Part shown: positions 407 through 10,316 of the stretch, piece after piece
Position numbering within the stretch: the first letter of the stretch is position 1
Layout: each line of letters begins with the position of its first letter
Position numbers and translations under genes: made by a program
The notes under the pieces: generated by a model
Told to the model about the DNA's origin: nothing
Database searches by the model: none
Seen by the model: only the letters and a program-made list of their open reading frames with translations
IMG/VR virus record: IMGVR_UViG_3300032286_001250
Span: 1-52,226 of that record
Origin: a virus
Length of the DNA stretch: 52,226 bases
Reading direction: 5' to 3' (one strand)

Positions 407-1123
407 TCAACCTATTCTGGTGAGAAGCTCGGCTTCAGATGAGCAGCCGCCCAGGGCTGCGGTCATGGCGGTGATGGCAGGGAGCTCCAGCTCGAGTTCG
501 TCTGTAGTCCAGACCGCCGTCGCCCTAATGACTGCAAAGAGTTTGTCGACTCTCTTGTCGTCTCCAGCTGGGTAATGTCTGTGTATGACGCTCTCGAGGT
601 CATCAATGACGTCGATGTTGGCTTCGACCATCAGACGTCGGATGTATCGCGCCCAGGCTTTGCTGAAATGGGTCGCTGAGTCTTCAGTGAAGAAAGTGAC
701 GCGGAGGTCAATGTCTTTAGGGATCCTGTAGCCGCAGAAAACTTCAGTCCACCAGCCGAGCGGTGGAGGCAGGCCGTCCTCGGTGATGGCGTAGGCGTCT
801 TGGTAGAAGTTGCTGCTGGGTGTGTTGGGGATTAGTTGTCTTGTCGTGTTGTAGCGGTGGATGTAGTAATTCAGGCGCTCGATGGCGATGAAGGTGCGGG
901 GGCCTGGGCTTCGGAGCTTGCCGTGACGGAGGCCGCTGATCTGACTGCTGTGGAGCCACGCTGCACCGTTGAGTGAAGCCTTACCAAGAGTCACCATGAC
1001 TGGGTGGGACCATTGATTGGTGTCCATCCAGCGCGTAAAAAGCAGTGAGAAGGTTCTAATGCCACCCTCAAAACGGCTGTTCTCGTCGAGGTTCTCGACG
1101 TTTTGGCGAGTCTCAGTGTCCAT
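407..1123 (-). CDS. Putative HTH DNA-binding protein, repressor candidate
   Basis: A 238-residue protein starting at ATG 1121-1123, divergent from the replication genes. I do not recognise the family as a whole. Residues about 45-80 read like an XRE-style helix-turn-helix: an Ala/Leu-rich helix, then WLHSSQISGLRHGK and a Pro turn, then FIAIERLNYYI. The remainder (several Trp, acidic patches, ending CSSEAELLTRIG) has no motif I know. Its position beside a divergent promoter region with an inverted repeat just upstream of its start (1140-1160) suits an autoregulating lysogeny repressor, but this is inference. It could instead be an ordinary early protein. It is the first gene of the leftward transcript. 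Confidence 0.5.
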   Translation of the reverse strand: MDTETRQNVENLDENSRFEGGIRTFSLLFTRWMDTNQWSHPVMVTLGKASLNGAAWLHSSQISGLRHGKLRSPGPRTFIAIERLNYYIHRYNTTRQLIPNTPSSNFYQDAYAITEDGLPPPLGWWTEVFCGYRIPKDIDLRVTFFTEDSATHFSKAWARYIRRLMVEANIDVIDDLESVIHRHYPAGDDKRVDKLFAVIRATAVWTTDELELELPAITAMTAALGGCSSEAELLTRIG

Positions 1124-1417: not shown

Positions 1418-4012
1418 ATGACTGAGGTCACAAAGGCGACAAGTGAACGCGACCTGAACGGAAGAGCGATTGAGCTGCTGCAGCGGGGGGTGTTCCCGGA
1501 ATGGTGGGCGTTGATCCCGGTGGCGGGGAAGAAGACGTTCGTCAAGGCGTGGGCGTCGACTCCGTTGAGCCGGAAGGCCTGTGAGGAGATGTACTGCCAG
1601 AGCACGACCTACCACGGCCTCGGGGTGGTGACGGGGGAGTTCTCGGGGGGCCTGATCGCCTTGGACATCGATGGGCCGGACGCTGATGAGCGGCTGCGCC
1701 TCGCCCTCGGAGACGCCTTTGAGGAGCGGGGGAAGGAAACGACGATGTCGTGGACCAGTGGCAAGGCGGGCCGGCGCCAGGTGCTGTATCGGGTGCCGGC
1801 CTCGGTGGTGCCCGAGTTGCGGCACGTCACCACGGTGATCCTGCGGGAGGACGGCGAGTGGCACCTCGGCAAAGGCGACGAAGACCGCATAGGCGCCAGA
1901 GGCGCCAAGGCCGGCCCGGAGGGGCAGGAGGCACAGGCCGAGGTTCCCCCGAAGGGGGAATATCAGGAGGTGGTGTTGAGGTTCAACCAGTGCCAGAGCG
2001 TGCTGCCGGGCAGTCCGCACCCGGAGAAGGGGCGGTTCTACGAGTTCCTGAACTACAACGGCGGCGAGGTCGCCATGGCGCCGGATTGGGTGATGGAGGT
2101 GCTGCGCACCGTGCGCAAGCCGGTGCAGTGGCTCAGCGACGCGGATCAGAAGGCGCTGGATGAGGCCCTCGGGGAGACGGCGATTCCCAGTCGCCAGATC
2201 CGGGGCTGGTTCTTCAAGGAAGAGGTGCAGGACAAGCTGCGACCGCGCTTCCGGGAGCTGATTTTCAACCACCCGAAATTCGGTGATTACGACTGGTTCG
2301 AGCGCGATGGGGCGAAGCCCCAGTCGGTCTGTGGGTGCCCTTGGCATGGGGGGACCAGCGGGACCAGCTTCCAGTATTCGGTCGAGAGCGGCTGCTGGGA
2401 CTGCAAGGCGTGCGGGATTGGCGGGGACGTCCTGGACTTCGTCCACAAGACCCGGACCAACAACATGCACGCCACCAGGCCCCAGGGGCCGGACCTCGAG
2501 GTCTATGTGGCGGAGATCGCGACCGCCCTCGGGTACAACTACCCGGACTGCGCCAAGGGGACGGAGCAGGTCGTGCGCGAGGCGCCCTACGTGACGATGG
2601 GGTCCGACGACTTCTTCAAGGCGCTCGGCGAGATCTACGACAAGGTGTCGAACCCGGCGACCCGATTTGACCGGATGGCGCTGCTTGCTTCTCAGACCGG
2701 CCGGCGGATGACCGGGAAGGACTGCGAAGCCGCCCTGATGGAGCACCGGTACTACGAGGAGGCGAGGAAACAGTCGACCTCGGGGGACTGGATCCGCAAG
2801 GTGGAGCCGCTGAAGAACACGGTGGCGAACCTACTGAAGCGGCCGTCACAGGTGATCCTGCATGCGGCCGGGGGCGTAGGGAAGACCAGTGCGTGTCTGG
2901 GCCTGGCCAAGATCGTCGGGACCGGCGGGACGATGCGGATCCGCGGGGTCGACGTGCCGGTGGACCAGGGGCCTGTCCTCTGGATCCAAAGCGACCAAAG
3001 CGTGGCGAAGCTGAAGGCCGACCTCGAGGACAACGGGATCGATCCCAGCGAGAAGGACTCCTGGTTCCACCTGAGGACGGGCTTCCAGCTGAACCACACC
3101 CGAGAGATGACCGAGTGGGTGCGGGAGATCAAGCCGGCGTTGGTGGTGGTCGATTCGATCGGAAGCTGCAGCAGCCGCATGCAGGTCTCGGAGATCGAGA
3201 AGGCGTTTGCCATGCCGCTGTACCTGTACAGCGAGCTCAATGGGGGCCTGACGAAGGACTCGTTCCCGGCGACCACGATCATCTGGATCCACCACGACAA
3301 CGCCAACGGCGAGGTCCGGGGCAGCCGGTATCTGATCAATGCGGTGGACGAGCAGTGGCACCTCAGGAAGCTCTCCGACGAGGAGCGGGGCGAGTTCCGC
3401 ACTCGGGGGGAGGACGTCGACTCGCTGCGGCTGATCCAGATCAAGAAGAGCCGGGCCGGCCGGGAGGGGGATCTGTTGCTGGTGAGGCGGGACGAGAACT
3501 TCGCGTTCTCGGTGGCGGACTACACCCCGACGGTGCGGCGCACGGATGGAGGGACTGGGGATGAGGATCCCTTCACCCTGGTCCTGGGCCTGTTGAAGGA
3601 GGCCGATGGGCCGTTGACGGCGGAGGAAGTGTGGACCGCCCTCGGGGAGCGGATGTTTGGGCAGAACAGGAAGTCTCCGTCGAGGCGGACGGTCGATCGG
3701 TGGCTGATTCGCTGGAAGAACGAGGGGATGCTGGAAGCTCGGAGGCGACCCTCCCAGGGTGTAAAAGGTGGTCGACCTGACGTCGTCTACACCCTGTCGA
3801 GCGCTGGGGAAGGGGTAGCTGCGGCAGAAACGTCCTCGGGGGAGCCTGGGGGGCTTCCGGCGGTGCCGGTGGCCGCTGATGTCGCCAGGGCCGTCCTGGA
3901 GGATCTGGGGGCGCCGCCGGCTCCGCAGGAGGTGGCTCCGTCCTCGGGGGATGAGTTCGTGCCTCGGGCGGTGTCCTACTCCGACGACGACATCCCGGAG
4001 GAGTGCCGCTGA
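1418..4012 (+). CDS. Primase-polymerase / replicative helicase
   Basis: A large replication protein (864 residues from ATG 1418; a longer frame reaches GTG 1322, but the first conserved-looking residues follow the 1418 ATG). The N-terminus resembles an archaeo-eukaryotic-type prim-pol: LIALDIDG (near 82-86) supplies the acidic hhDhD motif, with a following SPHP element. A zinc-ribbon-like cluster, CGCPWH...CWDCKACG, lies near 305-333. A RecA-like helicase follows, with Walker A GGVGKTSA (near 485-492), Walker B VVVDSIG (near 577) and TIIWIHHDN as a sensor-like strand. Residues about 720-785 look like a winged helix (TAEEVWTAL...SRRTVDRWL). It probably primes and unwinds at the adjacent repeat array (4097-4281), in the style of D5-type primase-helicases. 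Confidence is high for primase-helicase and moderate for the exact domain limits. Confidence 0.85.
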   Translation: MTEVTKATSERDLNGRAIELLQRGVFPEWWALIPVAGKKTFVKAWASTPLSRKACEEMYCQSTTYHGLGVVTGEFSGGLIALDIDGPDADERLRLALGDAFEERGKETTMSWTSGKAGRRQVLYRVPASVVPELRHVTTVILREDGEWHLGKGDEDRIGARGAKAGPEGQEAQAEVPPKGEYQEVVLRFNQCQSVLPGSPHPEKGRFYEFLNYNGGEVAMAPDWVMEVLRTVRKPVQWLSDADQKALDEALGETAIPSRQIRGWFFKEEVQDKLRPRFRELIFNHPKFGDYDWFERDGAKPQSVCGCPWHGGTSGTSFQYSVESGCWDCKACGIGGDVLDFVHKTRTNNMHATRPQGPDLEVYVAEIATALGYNYPDCAKGTEQVVREAPYVTMGSDDFFKALGEIYDKVSNPATRFDRMALLASQTGRRMTGKDCEAALMEHRYYEEARKQSTSGDWIRKVEPLKNTVANLLKRPSQVILHAAGGVGKTSACLGLAKIVGTGGTMRIRGVDVPVDQGPVLWIQSDQSVAKLKADLEDNGIDPSEKDSWFHLRTGFQLNHTREMTEWVREIKPALVVVDSIGSCSSRMQVSEIEKAFAMPLYLYSELNGGLTKDSFPATTIIWIHHDNANGEVRGSRYLINAVDEQWHLRKLSDEERGEFRTRGEDVDSLRLIQIKKSRAGREGDLLLVRRDENFAFSVADYTPTVRRTDGGTGDEDPFTLVLGLLKEADGPLTAEEVWTALGERMFGQNRKSPSRRTVDRWLIRWKNEGMLEARRRPSQGVKGGRPDVVYTLSSAGEGVAAAETSSGEPGGLPAVPVAADVARAVLEDLGAPPAPQEVAPSSGDEFVPRAVSYSDDDIPEECR

Positions 4013-4096
4013 CCGGTTCAGGAGGGGGTTACTCCCCTCCCCCCTTTGGAAGGGGTGGGTATGTGTACGCGTGCGTTGCGTCTGATTTTTGGCCAG

Positions 4097-4281
4097 TTGA
4101 CCAAAACCCCCCGAGATCGCCCTGATACCAAGGGATGAGGTTTTGGTCAAACGCGAGAATTTAGCGGTTTGACCAAAACCTCCCAACACCCGCGGAGGTT
4201 TTGGTCAAACCGGGAATCTCAGCGAGATGACCAAAACCCAAAAGCCAGTCCCCGAGGGCGATGTCGGGGGGTTTTGGTCAA
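4097..4281. repeat. Nested inverted repeat array, origin or operator candidate
   Basis: Six copies of a 12-mer TTGACCAAAACC alternate in orientation: 4097-4108 (+), 4139-4150 (-), 4169-4180 (+), 4197-4208 (-), 4227-4238 (+, first base A) and 4270-4281 (-). Centre-to-centre spacings are 42, 30, 28, 30 and 43, so the array is nearly symmetric about 4188. The flanking sequence is also mirrored: site 1 is followed by CCCCGAGATCGCCCT, and site 6 read on the minus strand by CCCCGACATCGCCCT. It fills the gap between the primase-helicase and the next gene, where phage origins with iterons are often found. An operator array for a regulator is the alternative. Confidence 0.75.
4167..4210. repeat. Perfect 17-bp inverted repeat (array core)
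   Basis: The core of the array is GTTTGACCAAAACCTCC (4167-4183), a 10-base spacer, then its exact complement GGAGGTTTTGGTCAAAC (4194-4210). It could extrude as a cruciform. There is no T-run, and it reads the same on both strands, so it is not a simple terminator. Confidence 0.8.
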
Positions 4282-4304
4282 ATTCCCCCCAAGCGGGCAC
4301 ATCA

Positions 4305-4320
4305 CGCGCACGCGTGCGCG
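4305..4320. repeat. 16-bp perfect palindrome
   Basis: CGCGCACGCGTGCGCG is a perfect self-complementary 16-mer made of alternating purine-pyrimidine steps, which favours Z-DNA or cruciform formation. It is just downstream of the repeat array and upstream of the promoter candidate for the helicase gene. A C-rich tract and a CCCCGAGG octamer follow at 4322-4336. Confidence 0.5.
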
Positions 4321-4367: not shown

Positions 4368-4396
4368 TTGACCTGACCTGTTTTGGTTGATAGGAT
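4368..4396 (+). promoter_or_regulatory. Sigma-70-like promoter candidate for the helicase gene
   Basis: TTGACC (4368-4373), a 17-base spacer and TAGGAT (4391-4396) match a housekeeping promoter well. The spacer includes TGTTTTGGTTGA, a degenerate copy of the array unit, so a protein binding the array could also block this promoter. Transcription would start near 4403, which supports the downstream ATG at 4446 as the start of the next gene. Confidence 0.5.
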
Positions 4397-4445
4397 CAAG
4401 GGGCAGCTATCGGGCCATGTGCGAGCTGCCCCCTCCTTTACAGGT

Positions 4446-5915
4446 ATGACCGTGACAATCGCTCCATCGCGTCTCGATGTCGGCAGTGCTCTTGAGGCTG
4501 TCGAAAAAATTGGTGCTGACCTAGGTCAGCCGAAGTTGACAGCTCCTCAACGGGAGTTCGTTGTAAACACGCTGACCCCGCTAATCCGCAACGAGCTAAA
4601 GGGGTTTATGACTTTGGAAGGAGCTGCAGGGTGCGGTAAGACCGTCACACTGGTGTCTCTGATTTTGGCGGCGTGCGAACTCGATCTGTCAGTCGCCATC
4701 GTCGCACCCACGCATAAAGCTTCTAGTGTTCTGCGCAAGAAACTTGATAAGTTCAGGGGACGTTACGATAATCTCCCTCAACCTGGGACGATTCATAGTT
4801 TGTTAAAACTCAAGCCGGCAAAAGTCCTACCCGGTAAACCTGAGACGTTTAGACAAGTAGGTACGCCGCGGCTCGGGCATTACGACTTGATTCTTATAGA
4901 TGAGTGTTCTATGGTCGGTAGTGAACTGTTAAAATTCATTATCGGTGCCTCTAAAACCTTTTCTATACCTGTGGTTTTTTGCGGTGACCCGCATCAGCTG
5001 GCACCCGTTAATGAACGGGGTAAGTCTCAGACTTTTGATGCTCCGGTCAAATACCAGTTGACCGAAGTGTTGCGCCACGACGGGGCGGTGCTTAATCTTG
5101 CTACACGAATTCGGACCTTGCAGTTTGTACCGCAGATCGGTCCAGACGAAGGTGGCGGTTCACGAATCTGTACTTACACAGACTCAACACAGCTTGAAGA
5201 ACAGTGGTTAAACAAGCTGGCGAGTATTGATTCTATGGAGAATCCGAATGAAGTCATAATGCTGAGTTGGAAAAACGTTAATAGGCGAGCTTTCAATGAT
5301 CGAGCCCGTAAACGGCTATTCGGCCCCGACGTACCCCGATTTATGAGCGGCGATGTAGTCGTGACGATGTCTGCATTTGAGCGTGATGGTGAATGCTTGT
5401 ACAACAACAACCAGGATCTCACGATTGAAAAAGCCGAGTTTATAGAAGCGTTAAAACCTATAGACTCTCTTGATCTTACGTTTGCGAGTTGGTTGCTGAC
5501 CATCACAGACAGTAATGTGATACCTGTCCTTGATGATGCAGAGATTGGGCGGTTTAAGTCCTCTGTACGATTATTGGGAAGTTCCATAAAGGCCGAGCAT
5601 GACGCTCTTATGCAGCGTGTTAAAGAGCTTAAGTACGATCGACCTGATGATCGTATGGCAATTGGTTCGGCCCGTCATGCTGCTGAAACTGCTCACTCTA
5701 AGTGGTCTACTCAGTATTACGCGCTAAAAAGTTTCTTTGCTGACGTCGACTTCCGTTACGCCTTGACTGTGCATAAAAGTCAAGGCAGTGAGTACGGCGA
5801 TGTATTCATTCACGACGACTACCTTGAGAACTCAAGGGAGTGTGTGCAGCTGCTTTACGTTGCCGCAACTAGGGCAGAAAAAGCAGTCCATCACTTGCAC
5901 ACCAGGCGGGAGTAG
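4446..5915 (+). CDS. SF1 DNA helicase (Dda/RecD2-like)
   Basis: A 489-residue ATP-dependent helicase from ATG 4446. A TTG 21 codons upstream (4383) is in frame but lies within the promoter candidate. Walker A GAAGCGKTVT is near residues 58-66, motif II DECSMVGS near 149, motif III FCGDPHQLAPV near 178, and the C-terminal UvrD_C_2-type motif VHKSQGSEYGD near 441, followed by LLYVAATRAEKA. This order and length fit phage Dda-like helicases that act in replication start-up and recombination. The gene is visibly AT-richer than its neighbours, uses different codons (many TTA, GTA and AAA), and lacks the CCTCGGGG octamer found on both sides. That suggests recent acquisition. Its 3' end overlaps a small antisense gene by 47 bases. 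Confidence 0.85.
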   Translation: MTVTIAPSRLDVGSALEAVEKIGADLGQPKLTAPQREFVVNTLTPLIRNELKGFMTLEGAAGCGKTVTLVSLILAACELDLSVAIVAPTHKASSVLRKKLDKFRGRYDNLPQPGTIHSLLKLKPAKVLPGKPETFRQVGTPRLGHYDLILIDECSMVGSELLKFIIGASKTFSIPVVFCGDPHQLAPVNERGKSQTFDAPVKYQLTEVLRHDGAVLNLATRIRTLQFVPQIGPDEGGGSRICTYTDSTQLEEQWLNKLASIDSMENPNEVIMLSWKNVNRRAFNDRARKRLFGPDVPRFMSGDVVVTMSAFERDGECLYNNNQDLTIEKAEFIEALKPIDSLDLTFASWLLTITDSNVIPVLDDAEIGRFKSSVRLLGSSIKAEHDALMQRVKELKYDRPDDRMAIGSARHAAETAHSKWSTQYYALKSFFADVDFRYALTVHKSQGSEYGDVFIHDDYLENSRECVQLLYVAATRAEKAVHHLHTRRE

Positions 5916-8149: not shown

Positions 8150-8542
8150 GTGCTCCAAGGCAAGGAACTCATCTCGTTTGTCAACGAGAACGAAGACACC
8201 ATGAACCAGACCGAGCTTGCGCGTGGCGCGGGTTACACCCGTGTCAAAGAAGACGGCAAGACCCTGACTCTGGTCAAGAAGTTCAACGACGCTCTGCTTC
8301 GGGCGATGGGGGTCAACATTTTGACCAGCCGCTCGCCCGGTAAAACGGCGCAGTTCGAGACCACTGTGCATCGTTCCGGCATCGTCCTCGTGGGTAAGAC
8401 CTACGTCGAGAAGTTCGGTCTGAAGGCCGGCGACAGCCTGGACATTGTCCTCGATGACGAGTTCATCAAGCTGGTGCCCAAGGCTGCCGACCAGGCCGCT
8501 GCCGCTGTTGAAACGGCTCAGAAGGTTGCCGTTGCTGCCTGA
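8150..8542 (+). CDS. Cyanobacterial AbrB-like transcriptional regulator
   Basis: A 130-residue protein from GTG 8150, resembling the cyAbrB family that is specific to cyanobacteria. An N-terminal helical part (ELISFVN...TELARGAGYTRV) is followed by KKFNDALLRAMGV and a short basic linker (SRSPGKTAQ), then a swapped-hairpin AbrB fold: ETTVHRSGIVLVGKTYVEKF, then GLKAGDSLDIVLDDEFIKLV. An Ala-rich tail ends it. Host cyAbrB proteins regulate carbon and nitrogen genes among others (family knowledge). A phage copy could adjust host metabolism or the lysis-lysogeny choice. It has its own promoter and palindrome (8086-8124) and overlaps the next small gene, forming a two-gene unit. Confidence 0.8.
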   Translation: MLQGKELISFVNENEDTMNQTELARGAGYTRVKEDGKTLTLVKKFNDALLRAMGVNILTSRSPGKTAQFETTVHRSGIVLVGKTYVEKFGLKAGDSLDIVLDDEFIKLVPKAADQAAAAVETAQKVAVAA

Positions 8543-9097: not shown

Positions 9098-10144
9098 TCA
9101 GAGCTTGAATTTGCCTCGAAGGGCGGTGAGTTTCTCGGCCTGGAGCCAGCGGCGGTACGTCCTCGTGTGGATCTCGAGGGAGTGGCCCATCAGCTGGCAG
9201 CCGATGTCCGCGGGGACACCGACGGTGATCAGGCGGATGGCGTAGGCGTGCCTCAGGGTGTAGAGACCCCAGGGGATGGGGCCTCGATCGTGCAGGGCGT
9301 CGTTGGCCACCTTGGCGATGGTCTCTTTGCCTTGGGGCGGCCGCGGTAGCCCCCCGAGGTCGAACCGATCGATCCAGCGCTGGGGGACCGGCCAGGCGAT
9401 CCGGTTTCCGGTCTTGGTGTCGTCGGCGATGACGCAGTTTCCCTCGCGGTCGAGCTCGGATTGGACGGCTTCGTGGGGCCTGATGCCGAAGGTGGCGCAC
9501 ATCCCGTAGAGCCAGCGCCAGTGGGGCAGCTTGATCAGGGAGTAGAGGCGCTCTATCTCGAGGTCGCTGGGGATGTCGCGGGGGGTGAGGTTGGCGGAGG
9601 TGTAGCCCCGGCCGGCGGCCTGGACGTTCTCGGGGGGAATTCCGGTGGCCTTGCAGATCTGGGCCAGGATGTTGGCGGTGTCCCGGCGGCCGGCGGTGCC
9701 CTCAGGGAGGGTGCGGACGATGCGGAGGGCCACTGCCTCGGTGACGGCCCCGCTGGGGGGCAGCTTGTTGAGGGCGGGGCGCCACTTCTTGATCCAAGAG
9801 GTCTCGGTTTTGAAGCGCTGCTCGTAGAGGCGGCGGCCGGCCTCGCGGAAGGCCTCGACCGTCAGGACGTCGACGTCCTCGGGGGATTCCCAGAGGTGCC
9901 AGGCGAAGCTGTTGGTGCGGAGCTGGTGGGCCAGCTCGATGGCGCGGCGTTCGGCCTCGGGGAGAGCGGAGTAGTCCGCGTTTAGTCCCAGGGCGATCCG
10001 CTGCTGGCGTTTTCGGGTCGGATCCTCGCGCTCGGGGAGGGTGGTGCGGAGGTAGATGGAGTCCCGGCGGCGCTCGACGCAGCAGCGGTGATGGCCGGCC
10101 TTGAGGCGGGCGTTGAGGTCGGCCAAGGCGGCATCCAGGGACAC
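9098..10144 (-). CDS. int: Tyrosine integrase
   Basis: A 348-residue site-specific recombinase (GTG start at 10144). An N-terminal arm-binding/SAM-like part is followed by a catalytic domain with Arg222 (FGIRPHEA), a probable beta-hairpin Lys near 244 (DTKTG), Arg298 in the second box (LYTLRHAYAIR), His321 (LMGHSLEIH) and nucleophile Tyr330 (TRTYRRW). The usual first His of the HxxR box is Tyr295 here, a variation seen in some integrases. The att site lies 131 bases upstream of its start, and a terminator between them insulates it from the tRNA promoter after integration. It should integrate the phage into a host tRNA gene; excision probably uses the neighbouring 8773-9051 protein. Confidence 0.93.
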   Translation of the reverse strand: MSLDAALADLNARLKAGHHRCCVERRRDSIYLRTTLPEREDPTRKRQQRIALGLNADYSALPEAERRAIELAHQLRTNSFAWHLWESPEDVDVLTVEAFREAGRRLYEQRFKTETSWIKKWRPALNKLPPSGAVTEAVALRIVRTLPEGTAGRRDTANILAQICKATGIPPENVQAAGRGYTSANLTPRDIPSDLEIERLYSLIKLPHWRWLYGMCATFGIRPHEAVQSELDREGNCVIADDTKTGNRIAWPVPQRWIDRFDLGGLPRPPQGKETIAKVANDALHDRGPIPWGLYTLRHAYAIRLITVGVPADIGCQLMGHSLEIHTRTYRRWLQAEKLTALRGKFKL

Positions 10145-10244: not shown

Positions 10245-10274
10245 CTATGACTGGGATTCAAGGCTGGAACTGAA

Positions 10275-10316
10275 TCGGAGCGACAGGATTTGAACCTGCG
10301 ACCCCCACTACCCCAA
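10275..10316 (-). other. attP core: 3' half of a tRNA gene (probably tRNA-Pro)
   Basis: Read on the minus strand, this is TTGGGG (anticodon region, TGG reading), a variable region, the T arm GCAGG-TTCAAAT-CCTGT, the acceptor strand CGCTCCG and discriminator A. The 5' half (D arm and 5' acceptor strand) is absent beyond 10316, so this is a partial tRNA that would rebuild the host gene on integration. The 42 bases are the expected identity segment of attP. The proline assignment rests only on the TGG in the anticodon position. Confidence 0.8.

Follow-up and report, generated by a model that had tools for sequence, protein, structure and literature searches.

A candidate iteron origin at the end of a PrimPol-helicase gene in a temperate cyanophage-like virus

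In phage-inducible chromosomal islands (PICIs), an iteron origin lies immediately 3' of the primase/initiator gene, and the Pri-Rep proteins occur as allelic variants (PMC6092414). The alpha protein of phage P4, whose primase is of the Toprim type (PMC4234260), is a multifunctional primase-helicase that binds the repeats of its origin through a winged helix at the C terminus (Yeo 2002, as cited in PMC4234260). ORF904 of pRN1 is a PrimPol that also ends in a winged helix and has its origin directly downstream, and the same layout has been suggested for phages like BIP-1 (PMC4234260). Lambdoid and Shiga toxin (Stx) phages carry an iteron origin within the O gene that is read by O, and both O and the iterons vary among relatives (PMC7466680). 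In the PICI-like elements (PLEs), satellites of Vibrio cholerae, the DNA-binding domain of RepA covaries with the iterons, the two are exchanged as a module, and cognate pairing is functional in experiments; origin-targeting phage nucleases may select for this diversification (PMC8263062). RSF1010 divides the tasks of iteron reader, hexameric helicase, and primase among RepA, RepB', and RepC (described in PMC4234260). Here, we analyzed a stretch of 52,226 nucleotides (the window), positions 1 to 52,226 of the IMG/VR virus record IMGVR_UViG_3300032286_001250, in which an array of six short sites follows the gene of a PrimPol-helicase. We consider it likely that this array is the iteron replication origin of a temperate cyanophage-like virus, recognized by the winged helix at the C terminus of the PrimPol-helicase whose gene lies immediately upstream. 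Literature searches returned no title or abstract on arrays of this sort in cyanophages.

The array and its recurrence in relatives

As listed in Table 1, TTGACCAAAACC is present six times, in alternating orientation, just 3' of the PrimPol-helicase gene, with start-to-start spacings of 42-30-28-30-43. The earlier note on this DNA had described them in this way, and five proved exact, the copy at 4227 carrying one mismatch. The central inverted repeat that it had reported is present and perfect, but its length is 19 bp (4165-4183/4194-4212) and not 17 bp. The mirroring of the outer flanks was recovered as well, the arms 4069-4123 and 4255-4309 being 75% complementary over 55 nt, and the symmetry axis of the entire array lies at about 4189. 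No further copy of TTGACCAAAACC at one mismatch or fewer was found elsewhere in the 52,226-base record. At two mismatches or fewer, the window held 8 matches versus 3.2 in shuffled windows, and six of the eight fell within 185 bp. Matches at three mismatches numbered 59 versus about 31 expected; a degenerate copy proposed at the promoter-like sequence (4379-4390) and a partial one near 1293 (1294-1305) both belong to this class and are within chance.

The PrimPol protein matched PF09250 (Prim-Pol, 2.8e-11) and PF13481 (AAA_25, 1.4e-10), together with a weak zinc ribbon (PF01807, 7.6e-5, under the curated cut-off); an alternative start of its open reading frame (ORF) is possible at 1322. AlphaFold modeled a winged helix at the C terminus, with a predicted local distance difference test (pLDDT) score of about 85-95 over residues 715-794, a recognition helix at 756-768, and wing strands at 772-777 and 788-793. 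Fold searches with this C terminus returned winged helices, mainly Fur/PadR-type regulators and also Orc1/Cdc6 bound to origin DNA. The P4 alpha domain had no entry among the fold matches listed, which is neutral as evidence.

Next, 54 non-redundant PrimPol 3'-end arrays, the window included, were surveyed, relatives being designated by our handles beginning with L. A repeated short site occurred at the same place in all 54. The array lay wholly inside the coding tail in 47, partly inside in 5, and outside in 2, namely the window and L183. In 46 of the 54, the motif score after the winged helix exceeded that of every control stretch from the same gene (mean 113 versus 72, control maximum 101.5). 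In the main clade, the layout was constant nearly to the base pair: arrays with four different cores shared left-edge gaps of 40-33-37-32-41, and those with a fifth core had 40-33-37-31-42. The corresponding gaps in the window are 41-31-27-31-42, so that the chief difference is a center 10 bp shorter, near one helical turn. L183, from a cyanobacterial genome and with a PrimPol 79-80% identical, had the same alternating layout, its sites being TTGTCAAAAACC or close to it versus TTGACCAAAACC in the window. Thus, of the conservation in close relatives on which the earlier note had staked its proposal, the array and the layout were found, but the exact motif had no counterpart.

Within one array, every copy of the site changed in concert, while the site sequence varied from phage to phage. 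Because the spacers could still be aligned between arrays of different core, the window included (spacer 5 mean identity 77% versus 51% shuffled), we regard the arrays as homologous, with their sites changed in concert. Exact-motif scans of IMG/VR and GTDB contigs detected no other array with the site sequence of the window. The IMG/VR scan gave 10 viral matches, which share one sequence and lie inside a coding gene in the copy read (L081); the GTDB scan gave 56 genome matches, all single inverted pairs with at most three sites per 300 bp. These inverted pairs are chance occurrences. Similarly, 9-mer counts restricted to exact words after the stop codon miss the arrays in relatives. A motif search in relatives can therefore overlook an element that is conserved in layout rather than in sequence.

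Two further observations were made on the relatives. In L186 (6300-7600), a cyanobacterial genome, a decayed copy was seen, with the PrimPol largely deleted and the array cut down to its outer site pair. In L007, L013, L016, L017, L022, and L184, a conserved non-coding block that contains two G+C-rich hairpins (AGGAGGGG...CCCCTCCT and CCACC...TGGTGG) stands just 3' of PrimPol, past the in-gene arrays; this block may be a terminator or part of the origin.

The window array folds as a single long hairpin (-72.1 kcal/mol, z -12.5), and pRN1 has a stem-loop as its origin, located 3' of the PrimPol gene. Both facts would suit a structural element, that is, a long cruciform or stem-loop origin read by its shape as proposed for pRN1. 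When the cores were kept and the spacers shuffled, however, the arrays of L198, L201, L213, L255, and L221 lost no stability (z about 0), so that the spacers show no conserved pairing, and we judge recognition by shape highly improbable.

Covariation and natural exchange of wing and sites

To relate sites to protein, partial Mantel tests were run within clades, with backbone similarity removed and 500 permutations; without stratification, clade membership confounded the tests. Variation in the 5' half of the core followed that in the recognition helix (residues 753-768; partial r 0.52, 0/500 permutations), and variation in the 3' half followed that in the wing (residues 774-792; partial r 0.62, 0/500). 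For the 3' half, the best of 127 sliding windows along PrimPol started at residue 776. Individual pairings of wing and half-site illustrate this: wings of the form GQR(K/R)P pair with GTTCAT (L185, L211, L212, L214, L250, and L253), GADKPV pairs with ATTGCT (L201 and L213), (A/S/V)K(T/A)PV pairs with ATCGTT (L197, L198, and L251), and GGRP pairs with AAAACC in two clades. The window and L221 have TGACCAAAACC, SRRT helices, and GGRP wings in common, with backbones about half identical. The compensatory changes that had been anticipated in related phages were hence found, as sites covarying with the PrimPol winged helix.

Natural swaps between near-identical phages give, at the level of sequence, the strongest evidence that the PrimPol winged helix would be the reader. 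Between L255 and L211, the PrimPol backbone and the three helices are 100% identical, whereas the wing is 44% identical, and their site cores are TGTCCTTTcCT and TGTCCGTTCAT, respectively. In the loci of that twin pair, L027 and L033, a divergent block of about 0.5 kb, which comprises the wing and the array, is flanked on each side by DNA of 95-100% identity (3.2-3.3 kb compared). L240 and L243 differ by the same type of block. As the divergence is confined to wing and array, the two move as one cassette. Taken with the covariation, these swaps indicate that the protein of the adjoining gene almost certainly reads the array with its DNA-binding tip, and they strongly favor the suggestion in the earlier note that an adjacent primase-helicase would recognize it.

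The same twins bear on a second suggestion of that note, a cooperative operator that loops DNA to turn off early genes. In the form weighed here, a regulator, either the 407-1123 protein or the AbrB-like 8150-8542 protein, would silence the helicase gene. A promoter-like sequence does adjoin the array (4368-4396), and the regulator gene is kept in the module. Nevertheless, L027 and L032/L033, whose arrays differ, have 407-1123-type regulators of 99-100% identity (100% between L027 and L033); this regulator is therefore not the reader. Moreover, all relatives read have the array and lack the helicase gene in that slot, the array is wholly in the coding tail in 47 of 54, and the degenerate copy at the promoter is within chance. 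We consequently hold an operator to be very unlikely.

Covariation might also be a by-product of linkage, the wing codons and the array forming one recombination block while another factor reads the sites. Wing and array are indeed adjacent and exchanged as one block of about 0.5 kb. The wing match persists, however, across clades of different layout (window and L221), the cross-clade wing test was equaled in only 1/500 permutations, and the 5' half tracks the recognition helix, (nearly) identical in twins with swapped 3' halves. Linkage as the whole explanation thus appears most improbable.

Origin use and the weight of the evidence

Given a reader in the PrimPol itself, the array probably serves to start replication of the phage genome. 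The clustered short sites next to an initiator gene that characterize iteron-type origins were found, and, as judged from covariation, the specificity of the initiator's DNA-binding domain matches the sites. We propose that each site would be read in two halves, the recognition helix contacting TGACC, which is TGTCC in most relatives, while AAAACC would be contacted by the wing. The six mirrored sites could then assemble PrimPol-helicase on both flanks of the central dyad, as two opposed half-origins, from which two helicase complexes would be loaded in opposite directions and the duplex opened, giving bidirectional replication. The PrimPol domain would prime, and the phage PolA (6036-8075) would then extend. 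Since the wing codons and the sites are neighbors, one recombination event can exchange both, and each phage would retain its own origin specificity.

Several results weigh against this proposal. Eight of the 54 arrays are too degenerate to beat all controls, and the arrays of clade 2 follow another layout, with seven or eight sites. The 5' half gave a secondary peak at about residues 374-394, where a sliding window at 380 reached a partial r of about 0.51, about equal to that of the recognition helix. Across clades, the correlations were weaker, with r 0.26 (1/500) for the wing and r 0.33 (28/500) for the helix. Helices 1-2 also correlated across clades with the 3' half (0.32, 0/500), and exchange of the whole domain is therefore possible; linkage of the adjacent wing and array explains part of the co-inheritance. 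Furthermore, no AT-rich melting region was found in, beside, or at the center of the array (mean AT 0.25-0.48 in 30-bp bins), which makes it a poorer fit to a classical iteron origin, although some origins lack such a region. GC skew across the window, a check put forward in the earlier note, showed no switch at the array.

With neither an AT-rich region nor a skew switch, readings as a copy-control or incompatibility site retain some probability. In these, or as an autoregulatory site, the PrimPol-bound array would act by titration, handcuffing, or transcription block, and the origin would lie elsewhere. Covariation tells the reader of the array and not its purpose; plasmid iteron arrays do both jobs, and extra copies of lambda ori arrest lambda replication (PMC4488673). 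On the other side, the array stands at the gene's 3' end, remote from the PrimPol promoter, and in 47 of 54 cases wholly within the coding tail; the 52 kb contain no other copy at one mismatch or fewer, so that a second iteron set to serve as the origin is absent; and PICIs and pRN1 have their origin at exactly this place. We regard a role in control without origin function as rather unlikely.

About two dozen natural winged-helix/DNA-site allele pairs are available in near-identical backbones, which makes both the recognition code and origin diversification directly testable. It is an even call whether this cyanophage family carries a self-matching origin cassette, wing and six-site array being co-exchanged, in which diversifying selection keeps about two dozen mutually incompatible types in circulation. 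Co-infecting phages, satellites, or origin-directed nucleases would be candidate pressures, and such a cassette, if real, would amount to a natural recognition code for the winged helix. The locus also offers a likely origin and initiator for a temperate cyanophage group, no phage in the isolate phage collection having a matching PrimPol.

Gene neighborhood and comparison with known systems

The gene order common to relatives is regulator, PrimPol, PolA, AbrB, possible xis, and integrase. The window has a family A DNA polymerase (PolA) gene, a small conserved minus-strand gene near PrimPol (the possible xis), and an integrase gene (9098-10144, minus strand). The phage-encoded AbrB-like transcription regulator (8150-8542) is of the cyanobacterial type and is kept in relatives. 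Beside the integrase, 10274-10316 resembles the 3' end of a cyanobacterial tRNA gene and is likely attP; similar stretches are present in cyanobacterial genomes and in phage PaV-LD. Judged from sequence, integrase and tRNA-end match would point to a temperate phage. For the array, the possibility of a hairpin or telomere-resolution palindrome was rejected, as spacer pairing is not conserved and an integrase with an attP-like tRNA end is present.

The ORF 4383-5915, Dda/RecD-like, has a GC content of 0.486 versus 0.66 for PrimPol and appears to be an insert. Its nearest relatives are only about 25-39% identical, those fetched from viral contigs were without such arrays, and none of the PrimPol relatives read has a Dda-like helicase in the slot after PrimPol, where either a small ORF on the minus strand or a longer one on the plus strand was found instead. 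In L014-L025, L184, and L185, a plus-strand ORF of about 250-285 amino acids, starting ...SRSWNGTPISRRTTDGFVNATAMCKANG, stands between PrimPol and PolA and is a candidate KilA-N-like gene. L189 (G529:C41) has a regulator, a PrimPol, a possible xis, a different iteron, and an integrase 80% identical to that of the window; no PolA match was found within the 18 kb read, and it may be a short prophage or a satellite.

Table 1. Features of the array and its surroundings in the window
Feature	Coordinates	Strand	Remarks
Regulator-like gene, divergent from PrimPol; control without covariation to the array	407..1123	-	No family match; syntenic in relatives
PrimPol (archaeo-eukaryotic primase [AEP] primase-polymerase), zinc ribbon, AAA_25 RecA-like helicase, C-terminal winged helix; candidate initiator	1418..4012	+	Pfam, AlphaFold
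Recognition-helix codons, residues 753-768	3674..3721	+	Covary with iteron 5' half
Wing codons, residues 774-792	3737..3793	+	Covary with iteron 3' half
Whole near-palindromic array with mirrored outer flanks, candidate origin	4069..4309	.	Axis about 4189; homologous arrays in relatives
Iteron 1, TTGACCAAAACC	4097..4108	+	Exact match
Iteron 2	4139..4150	-	Exact match to TTGACCAAAACC
Iteron 3, left arm of central 19-bp inverted repeat	4169..4180	+	Exact match
Iteron 4, right arm of central 19-bp inverted repeat	4197..4208	-	Exact match
Iteron 5, ATGACCAAAACC	4227..4238	+	One mismatch to TTGACCAAAACC, A as first base
Iteron 6	4270..4281	-	Exact match to TTGACCAAAACC
Promoter-like TTGACC-N17-TAGGAT ahead of the helicase gene	4368..4396	+	By eye
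Dda/RecD-like superfamily 1 (SF1) helicase gene; ORF opening at TTG 4383	4446..5915	+	Lower GC, 0.486

Among known systems, the locus is like the pri-rep-ori of PICIs and of Staphylococcus aureus pathogenicity islands (SaPIs) in combining a primase with an initiator, which are fused in some PICIs, and, in the window and L183, in having iterons 3' of the gene. It is unlike them in that the two iteron sets of PICIs flank an AT-rich region, whereas here six sites alternate around a center that is not AT-rich; in addition, the sites here mostly overlap the coding tail, and the initiator is a PrimPol with a RecA-like helicase. The helicase of P4 alpha is of the superfamily 3 (SF3) class. Unlike P4 alpha with ori and crr, the present system has an AEP PrimPol (PF09250), a zinc ribbon, and AAA_25 (PF13481), and its sites lie beside the gene, with family-wide covariation between them and the wing. 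P4 alpha is the nearest functional analogue, but with another type of primase and helicase.

The origin of pRN1 is a stem-loop without iterons, used with an SF3 helicase, whereas iterons are present here and spacer pairing is not conserved. The iterons of lambda O lie in mid-gene with an AT-rich tract, unlike those described here, and lambda O is a DNA-binding initiator only, which recruits the host helicase. A parallel to the covariation is PLE RepA with its ori, where the DNA-binding domain of the initiator likewise covaries with the origin iterons and is exchanged with them as a module; the PLE initiator is nevertheless unrelated (RepA_N domain), reads three semi-palindromic repeats of about 30 bp, and has two main specificities versus about two dozen here. 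RSF1010 performs the same tasks with three separate proteins, in contrast to the one polypeptide of this virus. The kind of system is therefore already known from PICI pri-rep-ori, P4 alpha, lambda O, and PLE RepA, and what is new is a dyad layout of alternating sites, their overlap with the coding tail of the initiator, and a natural series of about two dozen matched wing/iteron specificities.
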